This document shows positions 2 through 28,785 of a DNA stretch of 51,429 nt, in pieces. A program made the position numbers and the translations under genes. Under the pieces are notes generated by a model. The model made no database searches. It worked only from the letters and a program-made list of their open reading frames with translations, and had not been told where the DNA came from. The stretch is taken from the NCBI GenBank assembly GCA_013001685.1, contig JABDMD010000067.1, forward strand, positions 1-51,429, read 5' to 3'. How positions within the stretch are numbered: the first letter of the stretch is position 1; every line of letters starts with the position of its first letter. This DNA is from Gammaproteobacteria bacterium (lineage in GTDB: Bacteria; Pseudomonadota; Gammaproteobacteria; UBA4575).

Positions 2-1552
2 CTAAAATACGATCGTAGTGTTTTACTAAACCATGGCATTCGCCTTAATGGTATTCAGCACGATACGATGCTGGAATCTTATGTGTGTAACTCTGTTGCA
101 AGTCGACATGATTTAGACACACTGTGTGAAAAGCATTTACAACATACCAACATTCATTTTGAAGATGTAGCAGGCAAAGGTGCTAAACAGATTACTTTTG
201 ACCAAGTAGATTTAGACATTGCGCGAGATTATGCAGCTGAAGATGCCGATATGGTGTTGCGTTTGCACCAAGAGTTTTGGTCTGAGTTAAGCAAGAAGAA
301 AAAACAAAAAGAACTCTACGAAACGATAGAATTACCAATGCTAAAAGTGCTATCTAATATCGAACGCAATGGTGTATTGATAGACGACAAGCAGCTTGCT
401 AAGCAAGGCAAACAATTAACCAAAAGAATTGCCGAGGTAGAAAAAGAAGCCTTTGAATTAGCGGATACTCCATTTAATTTAAGCTCACCAAAACAGATCC
501 AAGAAATTTTATTTGAAAAGCAAGGTATACCTGTAATTCGTAAAACCGCAAAAGGTCAGCCTTCTACTGCTGAAGATGTTTTGCAAGAGCTTGCGGTTGA
601 TTACCCACTACCTAAAATAATATTAGAGCACCGTACTCTAAGTAAACTAAAATCAACCTATGTTGATAAACTGCCAACACTAATTAATCCTAAAACTGGC
701 CGCGTACACACTTCATATCATCAAGCCGTAGCAATTACTGGCAGACTATCTTCCTCTGATCCAAATTTACAAAATATTCCAATTCGTACCGAAGAAGGGC
801 GACGTGTACGCCAAGCATTTGTTGCAGAAAAAGGGTATCAAGTGTTGGCTGCAGATTATTCGCAAATTGAATTACGTATCATGGCGCACTTATCTCAAGA
901 CGAAAGATTGTGTGAAGCATTTGCGCAAGGTGAAGATATTCATCGTGCTACAGCAGCAGAAGTGTTTGGTCTGGAGTTGAACGCTGTGGAATCAGAGCAG
1001 CGTCGTGCTGCCAAGGCAATTAATTTTGGTTTAATCTACGGTATGTCAGCATTTGGTTTAGCTAAACAATTAGGTATTACGCGCACCGAAGCTCAGCAGT
1101 ATGTAAGCCTATACTTTGAGCGTTATCCTGGCGTGAAAAAGTATATGGATGGTATTCGCGAACAAGCACGTGAACAGGGATACGTAGAAACCTTATTTGG
1201 CAGAAGACTTTATTTGCCAGATATTAATAATAAAAATGTACAACGACGTCAATATGCTGAACGCACTGCAATTAATGCTCCTATGCAAGGCACGGCAGCA
1301 GATATTATTAAGCGCGCAATGATTAGCATTGATGCTCAGCTGCAAAATGAAAAATCTACTAAACAAAAATCTAAACAGGCAGAATGCATAATGATCATGC
1401 AGGTGCATGACGAATTGGTTTTTGAAGTTGAAGAAAGCGTGATCGAATCGACAAAAGAAAGTGTTGTTGAACAAATGGAAGCTGCTGCAGAGCTTTCTAT
1501 ACCATTAGTTGTAGATGCAGCAATAGGTGCCAATTGGGATGAAGCCCATTAA
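2..1552 (+). CDS. polA: DNA polymerase I, C-terminal part (5' truncated by window edge)
   Basis: Frame is open to the window start ([27 protein letters not shown]...); pol A motifs [67 protein letters not shown]. Confidence 0.98.
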
Positions 1553-1755: not shown

Positions 1756-2178
1756 ATGATAAGGAACATCATTACTACAGCCATACTTTTTGCGGCTTTA
1801 GTATCCATAGCTTCAACTGTACAAATTGTAAGTGCAGTAGAGCCAGAATTAGACTTAGATTTCTCTGCATTTGAAGACAACTTGGCTATTTCTAGTCACT
1901 CGTTTGCGCATCCATTTTCTTGGACGCCAAATATTTCTAAGCAACAAAAAATAATTAATTTATATGAGCGATTAATTCTGCCTCAGGTACTAGATAGCTC
2001 AAGTTTTGCTGGATATGCAGGACAGAATGCTGGCTCTGAACAGCGATTATTTTCCTTTGGAATATACCAAGGTGATGGCTTAGATGATTTACGTAAACGA
2101 TCTAAACATCACAACGATATAACGTTGCCAGATGAGGATACTGAAGCCTATGGAGTATCTGTAAAACAACGCTTTTAG
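1756..2178 (+). CDS. hypothetical secreted protein (N-terminal signal peptide)
   Basis: 140-aa ORF with hydrophobic N-terminus ending near ASTVQIVSAVEP; no family recognised. Confidence 0.6.
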   Translation: MIRNIITTAILFAALVSIASTVQIVSAVEPELDLDFSAFEDNLAISSHSFAHPFSWTPNISKQQKIINLYERLILPQVLDSSSFAGYAGQNAGSEQRLFSFGIYQGDGLDDLRKRSKHHNDITLPDEDTEAYGVSVKQRF

Positions 2179-2270: not shown

Positions 2271-2297
2271 GAACTTTTTTAAGTAACTACCCTCTAA
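2271..2297 (+). promoter_or_regulatory. sigmaE/AlgU-type promoter candidate
   Basis: GAACTT (2271-2276) - 16 nt - TCTAA (2293-2297), matching the GAACTT-N16/17-TCTRA pattern. Confidence 0.6.
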
Positions 2298-2302
2298 TCA
2301 AT

Positions 2303-2414
2303 AACGCAATAGCGTTACCCGCTTCCCTCCCTTAGCGGGACAAAAAGACTCGGGCTCCCCAACCGAGTCATTCTTGGCCCCGGTTACTTTAATGTTAATC
2401 GGGGCGCTTTTTTT
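2303..2414 (+). ncRNA. candidate sRNA in the polA-engB intergenic region (Spot 42/ErsA syntenic position)
   Basis: Hairpins AACGC-AATA-GCGTT (2303-2316), CCCGC-TTCCCTCCCTTA-GCGGG (2318-2339), GACTCGG-GCTCCCCAA-CCGAGTC (2347-2369), then a terminator hairpin GCCCCG...CGGGGC with T-run (2377-2414); sigmaE-like promoter just upstream. Confidence 0.6.
2377..2414 (+). terminator. rho-independent terminator of the candidate sRNA, overlapping the engB 3' end on the other strand
   Basis: GCCCCG-N17-CGGGGC followed by GC and seven T. Confidence 0.7.
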
Positions 2415-3027
2415 CATTTTCATCGATCATAGCGGCGTCTAACCACGCTCTAATTTTATTTTGAGCTTGGCTTAAACCTATTTGCTTAGTGGCAGAGAAT
2501 GTTTGAATACCGCATTCAAAGCCTTTTTGTTCTAGCTTTGAACTGACTTGTGTCATGGTTTTGACAGTATGGTTGCGATTTACCTTGTCGGCTTTGGTTA
2601 ACAAAATATATAGAGGAAGATGGTTGTGGTTGGTCCAGCGAATCATGGTCCAATCAATTTCTGTGAGCGGGTGACGAATATCCATTAATAACACCAATCC
2701 GCATAGTGGCTTTCTATGCACCAGATAAGCTTCCATTAGTCTCTGCCATTGCTGCTGCACTTTGACAGGTGCTTTGGCGTAGCCATAACCAGGTAGATCG
2801 ACTAAACAAGTATCCCCATCTAATTTAAAGAAATTAACTAACTGTGTTCTACCCGGGGTTTTACTCGTACGGGCCAGCGTGTTCTGACGGCAGAGCGTAT
2901 TAATAGCACTGGATTTGCCTGCGTTAGAGCGGCCACAAAATGCAATTTCGGCTTTAATGTCATCCGGAAAGTCTTTTTCAGAAGAGGCGCTGCGCAGGAA
3001 TTGCGCTTTTGAAAGCAGGGTAGTCAT
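2395..3027 (-). CDS. engB: ribosome biogenesis GTP-binding protein EngB/YihA
   Basis: GRSNAGKSSAIN, DLPGYGYAK, TKADK motifs; adjacent to polA. Confidence 0.97.
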   Translation of the reverse strand: MTTLLSKAQFLRSASSEKDFPDDIKAEIAFCGRSNAGKSSAINTLCRQNTLARTSKTPGRTQLVNFFKLDGDTCLVDLPGYGYAKAPVKVQQQWQRLMEAYLVHRKPLCGLVLLMDIRHPLTEIDWTMIRWTNHNHLPLYILLTKADKVNRNHTVKTMTQVSSKLEQKGFECGIQTFSATKQIGLSQAQNKIRAWLDAAMIDENEKKRPD

Positions 3028-11130: not shown

Positions 11131-11177
11131 TAACAATATTGAAATATAAACAACGCCTTTTTAGGGAGGAAATTGAG

Positions 11178-11924
11178 ATGAATAAGAAACTACAACACTT
11201 TGGTACTTCTGCCGTTCTGGCAACAGTTCTGGCAGCAGGCACAGCAGTGTTATCCACTACTGCATCAGCAGAAGCGACCCTTTCAGGTAACGCAGGGATT
11301 CTGTCTGAGTATATCTTCCGTGGCATCGTGCAAAACGATACGGCATCGGGTAACGGTGGCATCGATTTAGAAGTCGGTGGGTTTTATGCAGGCACATGGA
11401 TTGCCGACGTTGATGATGGTGTTGAGTACGACTTGTATGCAGGTTATGTGCATGAGTTTGCCAATGGATTTTATCTTGGTGCGGGTGGTACGAGTTACCA
11501 GTATTCAGACAGTTTTGATCGTGAGTACAACGAAGCGAATTTTTATGCTGGTTGGTCGAATGATCTATGGTCATTAGATCTTGAATACACCACGGGTGAT
11601 TACAACGGTGATTTTGTTGATGACAACGGAAATATCGAAGGTGATGAGTATGACTTTATTGCCGCTACTGTCGGTTGGAATGGTGTGTATTTAACCTATG
11701 GTGCATTTGGTGATGATGCAGATGATCAACTCGGTGAATACTTTGAGTTGGGCTATGGATTTGAAGTTGCAGGTTTTGATGTCACAGCAGCCGTAGTGCA
11801 TACCGATTTAGACGATGATCCTGCTGGTCTAACCAGTGATGGTGGAAGCCCTGGCGATGGGGATGAAACATCAGCTTACGTCGGTATCCACCGTAGTTTC
11901 GACATCATGAGCTGGGGTAGTTAA
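11178..11924 (+). CDS. TorF-family putative porin (TIGR02001-like)
   Basis: Signal peptide then ATLSGNAGILSEYIFRGIVQND...; beta-barrel-like; SD AGGGAGGAA before ATG 11178 (track start 11118 lies inside the promoter region). Confidence 0.88.
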   Translation: MNKKLQHFGTSAVLATVLAAGTAVLSTTASAEATLSGNAGILSEYIFRGIVQNDTASGNGGIDLEVGGFYAGTWIADVDDGVEYDLYAGYVHEFANGFYLGAGGTSYQYSDSFDREYNEANFYAGWSNDLWSLDLEYTTGDYNGDFVDDNGNIEGDEYDFIAATVGWNGVYLTYGAFGDDADDQLGEYFELGYGFEVAGFDVTAAVVHTDLDDDPAGLTSDGGSPGDGDETSAYVGIHRSFDIMSWGS

Positions 11925-12383: not shown

Positions 12384-13616
12384 GTGGAAAACAATATATT
12401 TGAATTACAGTATGCACTAGACACCTTTTACTTTCTGGTGATGGGTGCATTGGTAATGTGGATGGCCGCAGGCTTTGCCATGTTAGAATCAGGTTTGGTA
12501 CGTTCGAAGAATACGACTGAAATATTAGCTAAGAATATTGCTCTATATGCAGTAGCTTGCACCATGTACATGATATGTGGCTACGCAATTATGTATGACG
12601 GTGGTGTTTTCTTAAAGGGTATCGTTGGTGACGGTGTAGCAGGCGCGGAAGAGGCAGCAACCTATGCACCTTCAGCTGATTTTTTCTTTCAAGCAGTATT
12701 TGTTGCAGCAACGATGTCAATTGTTTCTGGTGCGGTTGCTGAACGCATGAAACTCTGGGCATTTTTAGTTTTTGCAGTAGTGATGACGGGCTTCATTTAT
12801 CCAATGGAAGGAAGCTGGACTTGGGGAGGCAAGGCTGTTTTTGGCATGTATACATTGGGAGATCTAGGATTTTCTGATTTTGCAGGTTCAGGCATTGTTC
12901 ACATGGCAGGCGCAAGTGCTGCATTAGCTGGTGTTATTTTGCTTGGTGCTCGAAAAGGCAAATATACAAGTGACGGCAAAGTGGTTGCATTACCTGGTGC
13001 AAATTTACCTTTAGCTACATTAGGCACATTCATTCTATGGTTAGGGTGGTTTGGCTTTAATGGTGGATCAGTATTAGCTACAGCTAGCGTTGAAAGCGCT
13101 AACTCGGTTGCAGTTGTGTTCATGAATACAAATGCGGCAGCCGCGGGTGGTTTGATTGCAGCATTAATCATTGCGCGTTTGATGTTTGGTAAAGCAGATT
13201 TAACCATGGCGTTAAATGGTGCATTAGCCGGTTTAGTAGCGATTACTGCAGAACCATCTACACCAACTCCATTGCTGGCTACTATCTTTGGTGCCATAGG
13301 TGGAATTCTTGTGGTGTTTAGTATTGTTGCTCTAGAGAAGATGAAAATTGACGACCCGGTAGGTGCCATTTCGGTTCACGGTACTGTTGGTTTATTAGGC
13401 TTGTTGCTAGTGCCAATTACCAACGATGGTGCATCATTTTCTGGTCAGATTATCGGAGCAATAACCATATTTGTTTGGGTATTTGTGGCCAGCTTAGTTG
13501 TCTGGGGAATTCTCAAGGCCGTAATGGGCATTCGTATCTCAGAAGAAGAAGAGATGGAAGGTGCAGACATTACAGAATGTGGAATGGAAGCCTATCCAGA
13601 ATTTGTGACTAAGTAG
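12384..13616 (+). CDS. amtB: ammonium transporter
   Basis: AmtB family: MGALVMWMAAGFAMLESGLVRSKN, WTWGGKA, GFNGGSVL; GTG start with SD. Confidence 0.97.
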   Translation: MENNIFELQYALDTFYFLVMGALVMWMAAGFAMLESGLVRSKNTTEILAKNIALYAVACTMYMICGYAIMYDGGVFLKGIVGDGVAGAEEAATYAPSADFFFQAVFVAATMSIVSGAVAERMKLWAFLVFAVVMTGFIYPMEGSWTWGGKAVFGMYTLGDLGFSDFAGSGIVHMAGASAALAGVILLGARKGKYTSDGKVVALPGANLPLATLGTFILWLGWFGFNGGSVLATASVESANSVAVVFMNTNAAAAGGLIAALIIARLMFGKADLTMALNGALAGLVAITAEPSTPTPLLATIFGAIGGILVVFSIVALEKMKIDDPVGAISVHGTVGLLGLLLVPITNDGASFSGQIIGAITIFVWVFVASLVVWGILKAVMGIRISEEEEMEGADITECGMEAYPEFVTK

Positions 13617-27842: not shown

Positions 27843-28281
27843 AGTTGCTAATAGGTATGAAAATAGTTGGATCTAAATGCTCTGGGTGGATATGCGCTCA
27901 ATTTATAGTTCTTTAAGGTACTGATTCATATAGTTATATCTATACAGTACAGCGTATTTAGCTGAAGTTTATGCTGAATATTCGAATTACCACATAATGT
28001 GAATAAACTACATTAACATTGTGAACTATCTGGTATTTTTAATGGATGAGGGTGTCAACCAAATAGGCGCAAAACCGTTGTTTAAATTATAAGGGCATTC
28101 TATACCGTGAAATGTGGATCCTTCCAGGATGGACGGTTATCGATATGTTAAGCGGTTAGGTTAGATTTAGTACTACTATATATGTCCTATGGTTTAAGCC
28201 CAAAGATTAATTATTTACAGCTGCTCAAAAAGTGAGGAAAGTTTGAATTCGACATAGTCACAGCAGCTGGAAGAGTTTCTA

Positions 28282-28785
28282 ATGAAGACAGAGCGTCGTG
28301 CATTTCGTATGGCGCAGTTATCGACTAGAAATCGTGAAGATGCTTTAGACATAGTGCAGGATGCCATGATGCAATTAGCGAGTAAGTATGCCAATAAACC
28401 AGCGGACCATTGGGCACCACTGTTTTACCGTATCCTGAATAATCGCATAATGGATTTTCATCGTAAAAATTCCACGCAAAGCCGCTGGCGAGTTTGGTTT
28501 AGTAAAAACGTTGGAGATGATGAAAGCTATGATCCAATACAGCATGCGCCAAGTGATGATTTAAGTCCTGGTGCAGTTGCTGACTTAGAAGATTCTGTTG
28601 AGCGTATCGATCATTTAGTTCAACAGTTATCTCCACGTCAGCGACAAGCTTTTTTATTGCGCGCCTGGGAAGGAATGGAGGTTGCAGAAACTGCAAAGAT
28701 TATGAAATGTTCACAAGGAAGTGTAAAAACCCATTATTCAAGAGCCGTGCATTTTTTACGTGAACAATTACAGGAAAACTTATGA
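28282..28785 (+). CDS. ECF-type RNA polymerase sigma factor
   Basis: REDALDIVQDAMMQLASKYANKP, FYRILNNRIMDFHRK, LSPRQRQAFLLRAWEGMEVAETAKIMKCSQGSVKTHYSRAVHFLRE. Confidence 0.93.
   Translation: MKTERRAFRMAQLSTRNREDALDIVQDAMMQLASKYANKPADHWAPLFYRILNNRIMDFHRKNSTQSRWRVWFSKNVGDDESYDPIQHAPSDDLSPGAVADLEDSVERIDHLVQQLSPRQRQAFLLRAWEGMEVAETAKIMKCSQGSVKTHYSRAVHFLREQLQENL

Follow-up and report, generated by a model that had tools for sequence, protein, structure and literature searches.

Genomic locus and predicted structure of the RNA

The window analyzed here, a contig of 51,429 nucleotides from a gammaproteobacterium of the lineage UBA4575, shows the gene order polA, ORF140, small RNA (sRNA), engB (convergent), cytochrome c and a dsbA-like gene (Table 1), which we take to be the order around ErsA in Pseudomonas; engB and a cytochrome c gene as neighbours of ErsA were seen directly at loci read in this analysis. 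The initial annotation had placed the RNA in the gap between polA and engB, where Spot 42 and ErsA also reside. The shared locus holds, but polA is separated from the RNA by ORF140, a reading frame of 140 amino acids for which neither Pfam nor NCBIfam contained a match. ORF140 has a terminator-like hairpin at 2184-2207. It adjoins polA in close relatives too (L002-L005, L013, L014) and is apparently also found in more distant family members, judged by a conserved YGVxxKxxF end. The statement that no ORF covers the RNA is true for most of its length, the exception being the terminator: the final codons of engB, whose ORF ends at 2395, extend into it, so that the two genes converge with an overlap of about 20 nt.

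Table 1. Features of the RNA locus and candidate target genes in the window
Feature	Position	Strand	Remarks
polA, 3' part of DNA polymerase I	68-1552	+	ORF, named from its own sequence; upstream neighbour
ORF140 (140 aa)	1756-2178	+	between polA and the RNA; signal-peptide-like N-terminus
Promoter boxes GAACTT-N16-TCTAA	2271-2297	+	GAACTT 2271-2276, TCTAA 2293-2297; conserved in relatives
Hairpin 1 (HP1)	2302-2317	+	5' end of the RNA, 5 nt after the TCTAA box; fold and compensatory changes
Hairpin 2 (HP2)	2318-2339	+	CCCGCU-UUCCCUCCCU-AGCGGG; first C-rich loop 2324-2333; fold and compensatory changes in the family
Hairpin 3 (HP3)	2347-2369	+	GACUCGG-GCUCCCCAA-CCGAGUC; second C-rich loop 2354-2362; fold and covariation
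Intrinsic terminator	hairpin 2377-2405, T-run 2408-2414	+	fold; conserved; 3' arm overlaps the end of engB
engB (YihA/YsxC GTPase)	2395-3027	-	MMR_HSR1; convergent neighbour
TorF-type putative porin, candidate target	11164-11924	+	SD AGGGAGG 11163-11169; start codon 11178; TIGR02001
Ammonium transporter amtB, candidate target	12384-13616	+	GTG start; SD GGAGGGAA; TIGR03644

Reading of the sequence confirmed four hairpins (2302-2405) and a T-run downstream of the promoter boxes; the first of the two C-rich loops, UUCCCUCCCU, had been given with the closing UA added. The RNA from 2302 to 2415 folds with -46.4 kcal/mol, compared with -27.6 +/- 3.1 kcal/mol for dinucleotide shuffles (n = 200; z = -6.0), and none of the 200 shuffles was as stable. 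Transcription is predicted to start at about 2302-2304, which would yield an RNA of about 112 nt ending at its own terminator, whose loop, unlike that of most family members, is not C-rich.

Distribution and conservation of the RNA family

A DNA search of 55 genomes located the RNA in 12, one of them the genome of the window, and adjacent to engB in every case; boxes and hairpins are kept in the 11 related genomes. GAACTT is present in all 12 sequences of the close-relative alignment, together with a TCTAA/TCTAT or GTCATA box; HP2 is identical in the closest 11, and HP1 shows a compensatory change from ACGC/GCGT to GTGC/GCAC. A covariance model built from 11 sequences (R1) matched in 152 of 369 sampled gammaproteobacterial genomes, corresponding to 116 of 271 genera; the genus count was obtained with strict filters and is probably an underestimate, and among the genomes sampled for the class are some whose 'beta' status was inferred from anti-hemB matches. 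The RNA is thus not specific to one lineage, as had been proposed initially, while its interpretation as an independent sRNA gene agrees with promoter boxes of its own and with hairpins conserved in 11 relatives and far beyond. E-values obtained with our own covariance models, R1 and the wider family model R2, are rough.

We examined 100 loci with 110 hits. A polA homologue, engB or both were located within 1.5 kb at 84 of these loci in nearly fixed orientation: polA at 60 loci, upstream and on the same strand in 57 of them, and engB at 71 loci, convergent in 68, with a median distance of 30 bp. Among the 16 loci without polA or engB nearby, six have a cytochrome gene and 14 show a GAACTT-type promoter recognizable by eye, which indicates that false hits are few. 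Several genomes carry multiple copies of the RNA, with six anti-hemB-type hits on several contigs of G282, four copies within about 1 kb in another genome (G578:C8:6557-7495), and two or three copies in several others. At three further loci (L129, L136 and L118) the gap on the polA side of engB contains other hairpins with C-rich loops (AGCUUCUCCCC...). The gaps at L129 and L136 matched no Rfam family at the gathering cut-off, and it is possible that all three harbor further types of sRNA.

Covariation in relatives, suggested at the outset as a check, is extensive. In alignment A3, both partners have changed in 26 of the 27 base pairs, amounting to 638 cells, compared with 144 in shuffles and at most 89 with partners slid. 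A3 was fitted to the structure, and the MAFFT alignment A2 served as independent check, in which nine pairs were counted versus 3.8 in shuffles and at most one in slides. On this computational evidence the structure of the RNA is under selection.

The C-rich apical loops, to which the initial annotation had pointed, are the conserved feature. CUCCCU occurs in the HP2 loop of 99 of the 110 family hits, CCCC in the HP3 loop of 95, and CCC in the terminator loop of 78, whereas HP1 loops and linkers are far less C-rich across the family.

A conserved promoter of the sigma-E type

The promoter, which reads GAACTT-N15-CTCTAA for the window in the family alignment, is conserved family-wide. Of the 110 hits, 81 have GAACTT within the 55 nt upstream, where 1.6 would be expected on the basis of these loci. 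In an alignment anchored solely on GAAC, the columns at 22-26 nt downstream contain T (88%), C (87%), T (63%), A or T (79%) and A (75%), and a single spacer of 15 nt to GTCWWA is kept in 89 of 102 cases. The resulting matrix, TGAACTTT-N15-GTCTWA, has the layout of sigma-E/AlgU promoters, and the window thus possesses a promoter of consensus form with conserved spacing. Computationally, selection on the promoter sequence is evident.

An RpoE gene scoring above the NCBIfam cut-off is encoded in the genome of the window, and in two relatives that carry the RNA the hit of the RpoE model is the single one. A further ECF-type sigma factor, a weak hit of the RpoE model, is encoded in the window at 28270-28770 (+). 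No autoregulatory GAACTT box was found upstream of rpoE in the genus, and the strict GAACTT motif showed no convincing enrichment genome-wide; the assignment to sigma-E therefore rests on the consensus, from which we infer that the RNA is transcribed by sigma-E (RpoE/AlgU). In two genomes of the genus, conserved GAACTT-N16-TCTAA sites are also located just upstream of the gene for an exported thioredoxin-like protein (L407 and L396; G000:C179 and G002:C1:950599), possibly representing a further sigma-E promoter. Within the family of the window, the GAACTT box survives at loci where the body of the RNA has diverged (L366/L374 in G009) or decayed (L376 in G017).

Relationship to anti-hemB and sX13

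The region was compared with Rfam using a query of 601 bases, first at gathering thresholds, at which no match was obtained in the stretch, and then at E-value thresholds. The initial annotation had suggested the ErsA and Spot 42 models for such a comparison; neither identified the RNA, and it was two related families unmentioned there, anti-hemB and sX13, that emerged. Matches to MIR169_7 and RefA1 were attributed to chance.

Anti-hemB (RF02837) aligned over its full length (model positions 1-81) with 36.4 bits and an E-value of 7.2e-7, which is below the cut-off of 49.5 bits, and the window RNA shows its architecture of three hairpins, a C-rich first modelled loop and a terminator. Since the gammaproteobacterial loci L077 and L081, which were found with R1, pass the anti-hemB cut-off, the window RNA belongs to the same wider family, though not to RF02837 as curated. 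Both RNAs share a CCCGC-(C-rich)-GCGGG hairpin, most of the strong anti-hemB matches in other genomes adjoin engB and cytochrome c, and several members possess a GAACTT box and a hairpin 1, the latter absent from the Rfam model. Unlike the window RNA, anti-hemB mostly lacks a C-rich hairpin 3 (the consensus loop in Rfam is uuuuua), and the genome family f40 contains relocated or extra copies without GAACTT box. These copies (L233, L235, L237, L240) lie away from engB, as if relocation or duplication of the gene had brought an exchange of its promoter. Anti-hemB corresponds to ncS04, a transcript detected in Burkholderia cenocepacia, whose level was unchanged under the seven conditions tested (PMC5688073).

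The sX13 model (RF02232) scored 22.4 bits with a cut-off of 50. The sX13 architecture, stems with C-rich apical loops downstream of polA, was found in the window with two C-rich loops (HP2 and HP3) instead of three, and one ORF away from polA. In the reverse direction, R2 recovered sX13 at its own coordinates and in full length (30-35 bits); RF02232 reciprocally finds members of the family, and two loci at polA (L217, L234) look intermediate. In Xanthomonas, sX13 is located downstream of polA and is induced by stress, accumulating in high salt, at 37 °C (heat) and in minimal medium; its hallmark is a set of three C-rich loops, through which mRNAs carrying G-rich motifs close to the start codon are repressed (PMC3771888). 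It differs from the window RNA in that GAACC is kept but the -10 region has become TATA-like, in that engB is not found within 1.5 kb in genomes with strong sX13 matches, and in that it has been reported only from Xanthomonadaceae.

It is thus well supported that the window RNA forms one family with anti-hemB and sX13, each being a branch of it; Rfam lists the latter two as separate entries. Among the papers searched, we found none joining the RNAs of this locus (the window RNA, anti-hemB, sX13, ErsA and Spot 42). A similarity to sX13 has been noted for the alpha-r7 sRNAs of alphaproteobacteria, which are located at polA and contain three C-rich stem-loops (PMC3771888). R2 yielded only weak hits in same-phylum genomes, with E-values near 1e-4; those examined represented terminators, tRNAs or unrelated sites with neither polA nor engB nearby, and we rejected them as members outside the class.

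Candidate targets and proposed mode of action

Duplexes of the HP2 loop with the start regions of the 51 genes of the window were ranked by energy. The start region of amtB formed the most stable duplex (-14.9 kcal/mol), that of the TorF-type porin gene the second (-13.9 kcal/mol), and glnK, located between these two genes, ranked seventh. Eleven genomes contain both an intact RNA and an amtB start that could be read; the Shine-Dalgarno sequence of amtB is fully complementary to the loop in seven of them and partly so in the other four. The complementarity is missing in G004, G009, G012 and G017, for which R2 gave at best a weak match. The RNA of G009 has diverged (loop CUUCCUCU) and that of G017 has decayed, with the promoter box retained in front of it; the contig of G012 ends before the locus, and the locus in G004 is unread. 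This is suggestive of amtB complementarity following the presence of the RNA, with about two independent losses. In G009, the amtB Shine-Dalgarno sequence was inspected for a change compensating for the diverged HP2 loop, and none is present; GGGAGG Shine-Dalgarno sequences showed no convincing enrichment genome-wide. Three genomes of the genus also share such a sequence at a gene of the agcS type. On the basis of these predicted duplexes, amtB and the TorF-type porin gene are putative targets of the RNA.

Taken together, we consider it likely that the locus encodes a trans-acting sRNA of an old family residing between polA and engB, which is transcribed by sigma-E and blocks Shine-Dalgarno sequences with its loops. 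Under envelope stress, RpoE/AlgU would transcribe the RNA from its GAACTT-N15-CTCTAA promoter up to its own terminator. Stable stems are expected to keep the two C-rich loops open, and these loops would pair with purine-rich Shine-Dalgarno sequences and hinder the entry of ribosomes, thereby reducing the synthesis of selected envelope and transport proteins. Most likely, the RNA would thus work like sX13, and the target rule that it offers is the loop UUCCCUCCC against purine-rich Shine-Dalgarno sequences.

An alternative is that the RNA represents an ErsA ortholog in the strict sense, which would use an unstructured U-rich region, together with Hfq, to pair with its targets. Both RNAs occupy the polA-engB-cytochrome c locus, their promoters are laid out alike (GAACTT-N15-GTC; GAACTT-N15-GTCAGA at L115), a C-rich loop is present in the ErsA terminator as in that of most family members, R2 scores 22-27 bits at the coordinates of ErsA, and a gene for Hfq is present in the genome of the window. 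However, the ErsA model (RF01719, Pseudomon-1), which found ErsA itself at L112, L113, L115 and L122, gave no match in the window up to E = 10. The R2 score comes largely from the terminator and hairpin 3, hairpin 2 of ErsA does not fit the alignment, and ErsA has another arrangement of hairpins including an unstructured U-rich domain of 34 nt (PMC8575079), to which nothing in the predicted fold of the window RNA corresponds. We therefore regard orthology with ErsA as unlikely.

It is also improbable that the RNA is a sponge or decoy that captures a protein with its C-rich loops or acts as a competing mimic of the anti-Shine-Dalgarno sequence, with no specific pairing to mRNAs. The resemblance of the loop to the anti-Shine-Dalgarno sequence of 16S rRNA, CCUCC, and the retention of CUCCCU in very distant genomes, beyond what changing mRNA targets would require, fit such a function, yet Shine-Dalgarno sequences are themselves constrained, which would also account for the conservation of the loop. 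A sponge for CsrA/RsmA would require GGA motifs, whereas the loops are C-rich, and changes in either the sX13 loops or the G-rich motifs of its targets abolish the regulation of specific mRNAs (PMC3771888). That the stretch is nothing but a 3' untranslated region with the terminator of surrounding genes, as the overlap with the 3' end of engB might suggest, is very improbable, because ORF140 upstream is followed by a separate terminator-like hairpin, because strong conservation of the promoter boxes and covariation of three further hairpins are not needed for a terminator, and because Xanthomonas and Burkholderia produce related RNAs as independent transcripts.

Comparison with other sRNAs and implications

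The trans-acting sRNA proposed here belongs to a family that is very widespread and mostly uncatalogued, and that takes in two RNAs known as isolated local families. Whether the polA loci of other bacteria encode sRNAs that act alike was asked by the authors of the sX13 study in 2013 (PMC3771888). A large share of the sampled gammaproteobacterial genera carries a recognizable relative, mostly with a sigma-E-type promoter, and a link of such a promoter to anti-hemB or sX13 is absent from the Rfam entries and the papers we found. For many lineages that have received little study, the family is thus a candidate sRNA branch of the sigma-E response.

A role like the one proposed here is played by the MicA/RybB-type sRNAs of enteric bacteria, which depend on sigma-E and lower porin synthesis. 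These sRNAs differ in locus and sequence, were not matched by Rfam in the window, and pair through unstructured 5' ends with Hfq and not through C-rich apical loops. Spot 42, which is controlled by CRP-cAMP and the carbon source, has a different structure and shares with the window RNA solely its position on the chromosome; its model (RF00021) scored 15.4 bits with a cut-off of 80. Identity with ErsA or Spot 42 is thus supported by neither Rfam model, the weak R2 scores leaning on the terminator. A common descent at a deeper level is a more tentative idea: sX13, anti-hemB, ErsA, Spot 42 and the window RNA might possibly all derive from one ancestral sigma-E-dependent sRNA with C-rich loops that resided beside engB before the split of beta- and gammaproteobacteria. 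If so, this would be among the oldest traceable loci of trans-acting sRNAs, and the sigma-E promoter would have been lost in a lineage-dependent manner, as in Spot 42 and the relocated copies of anti-hemB.
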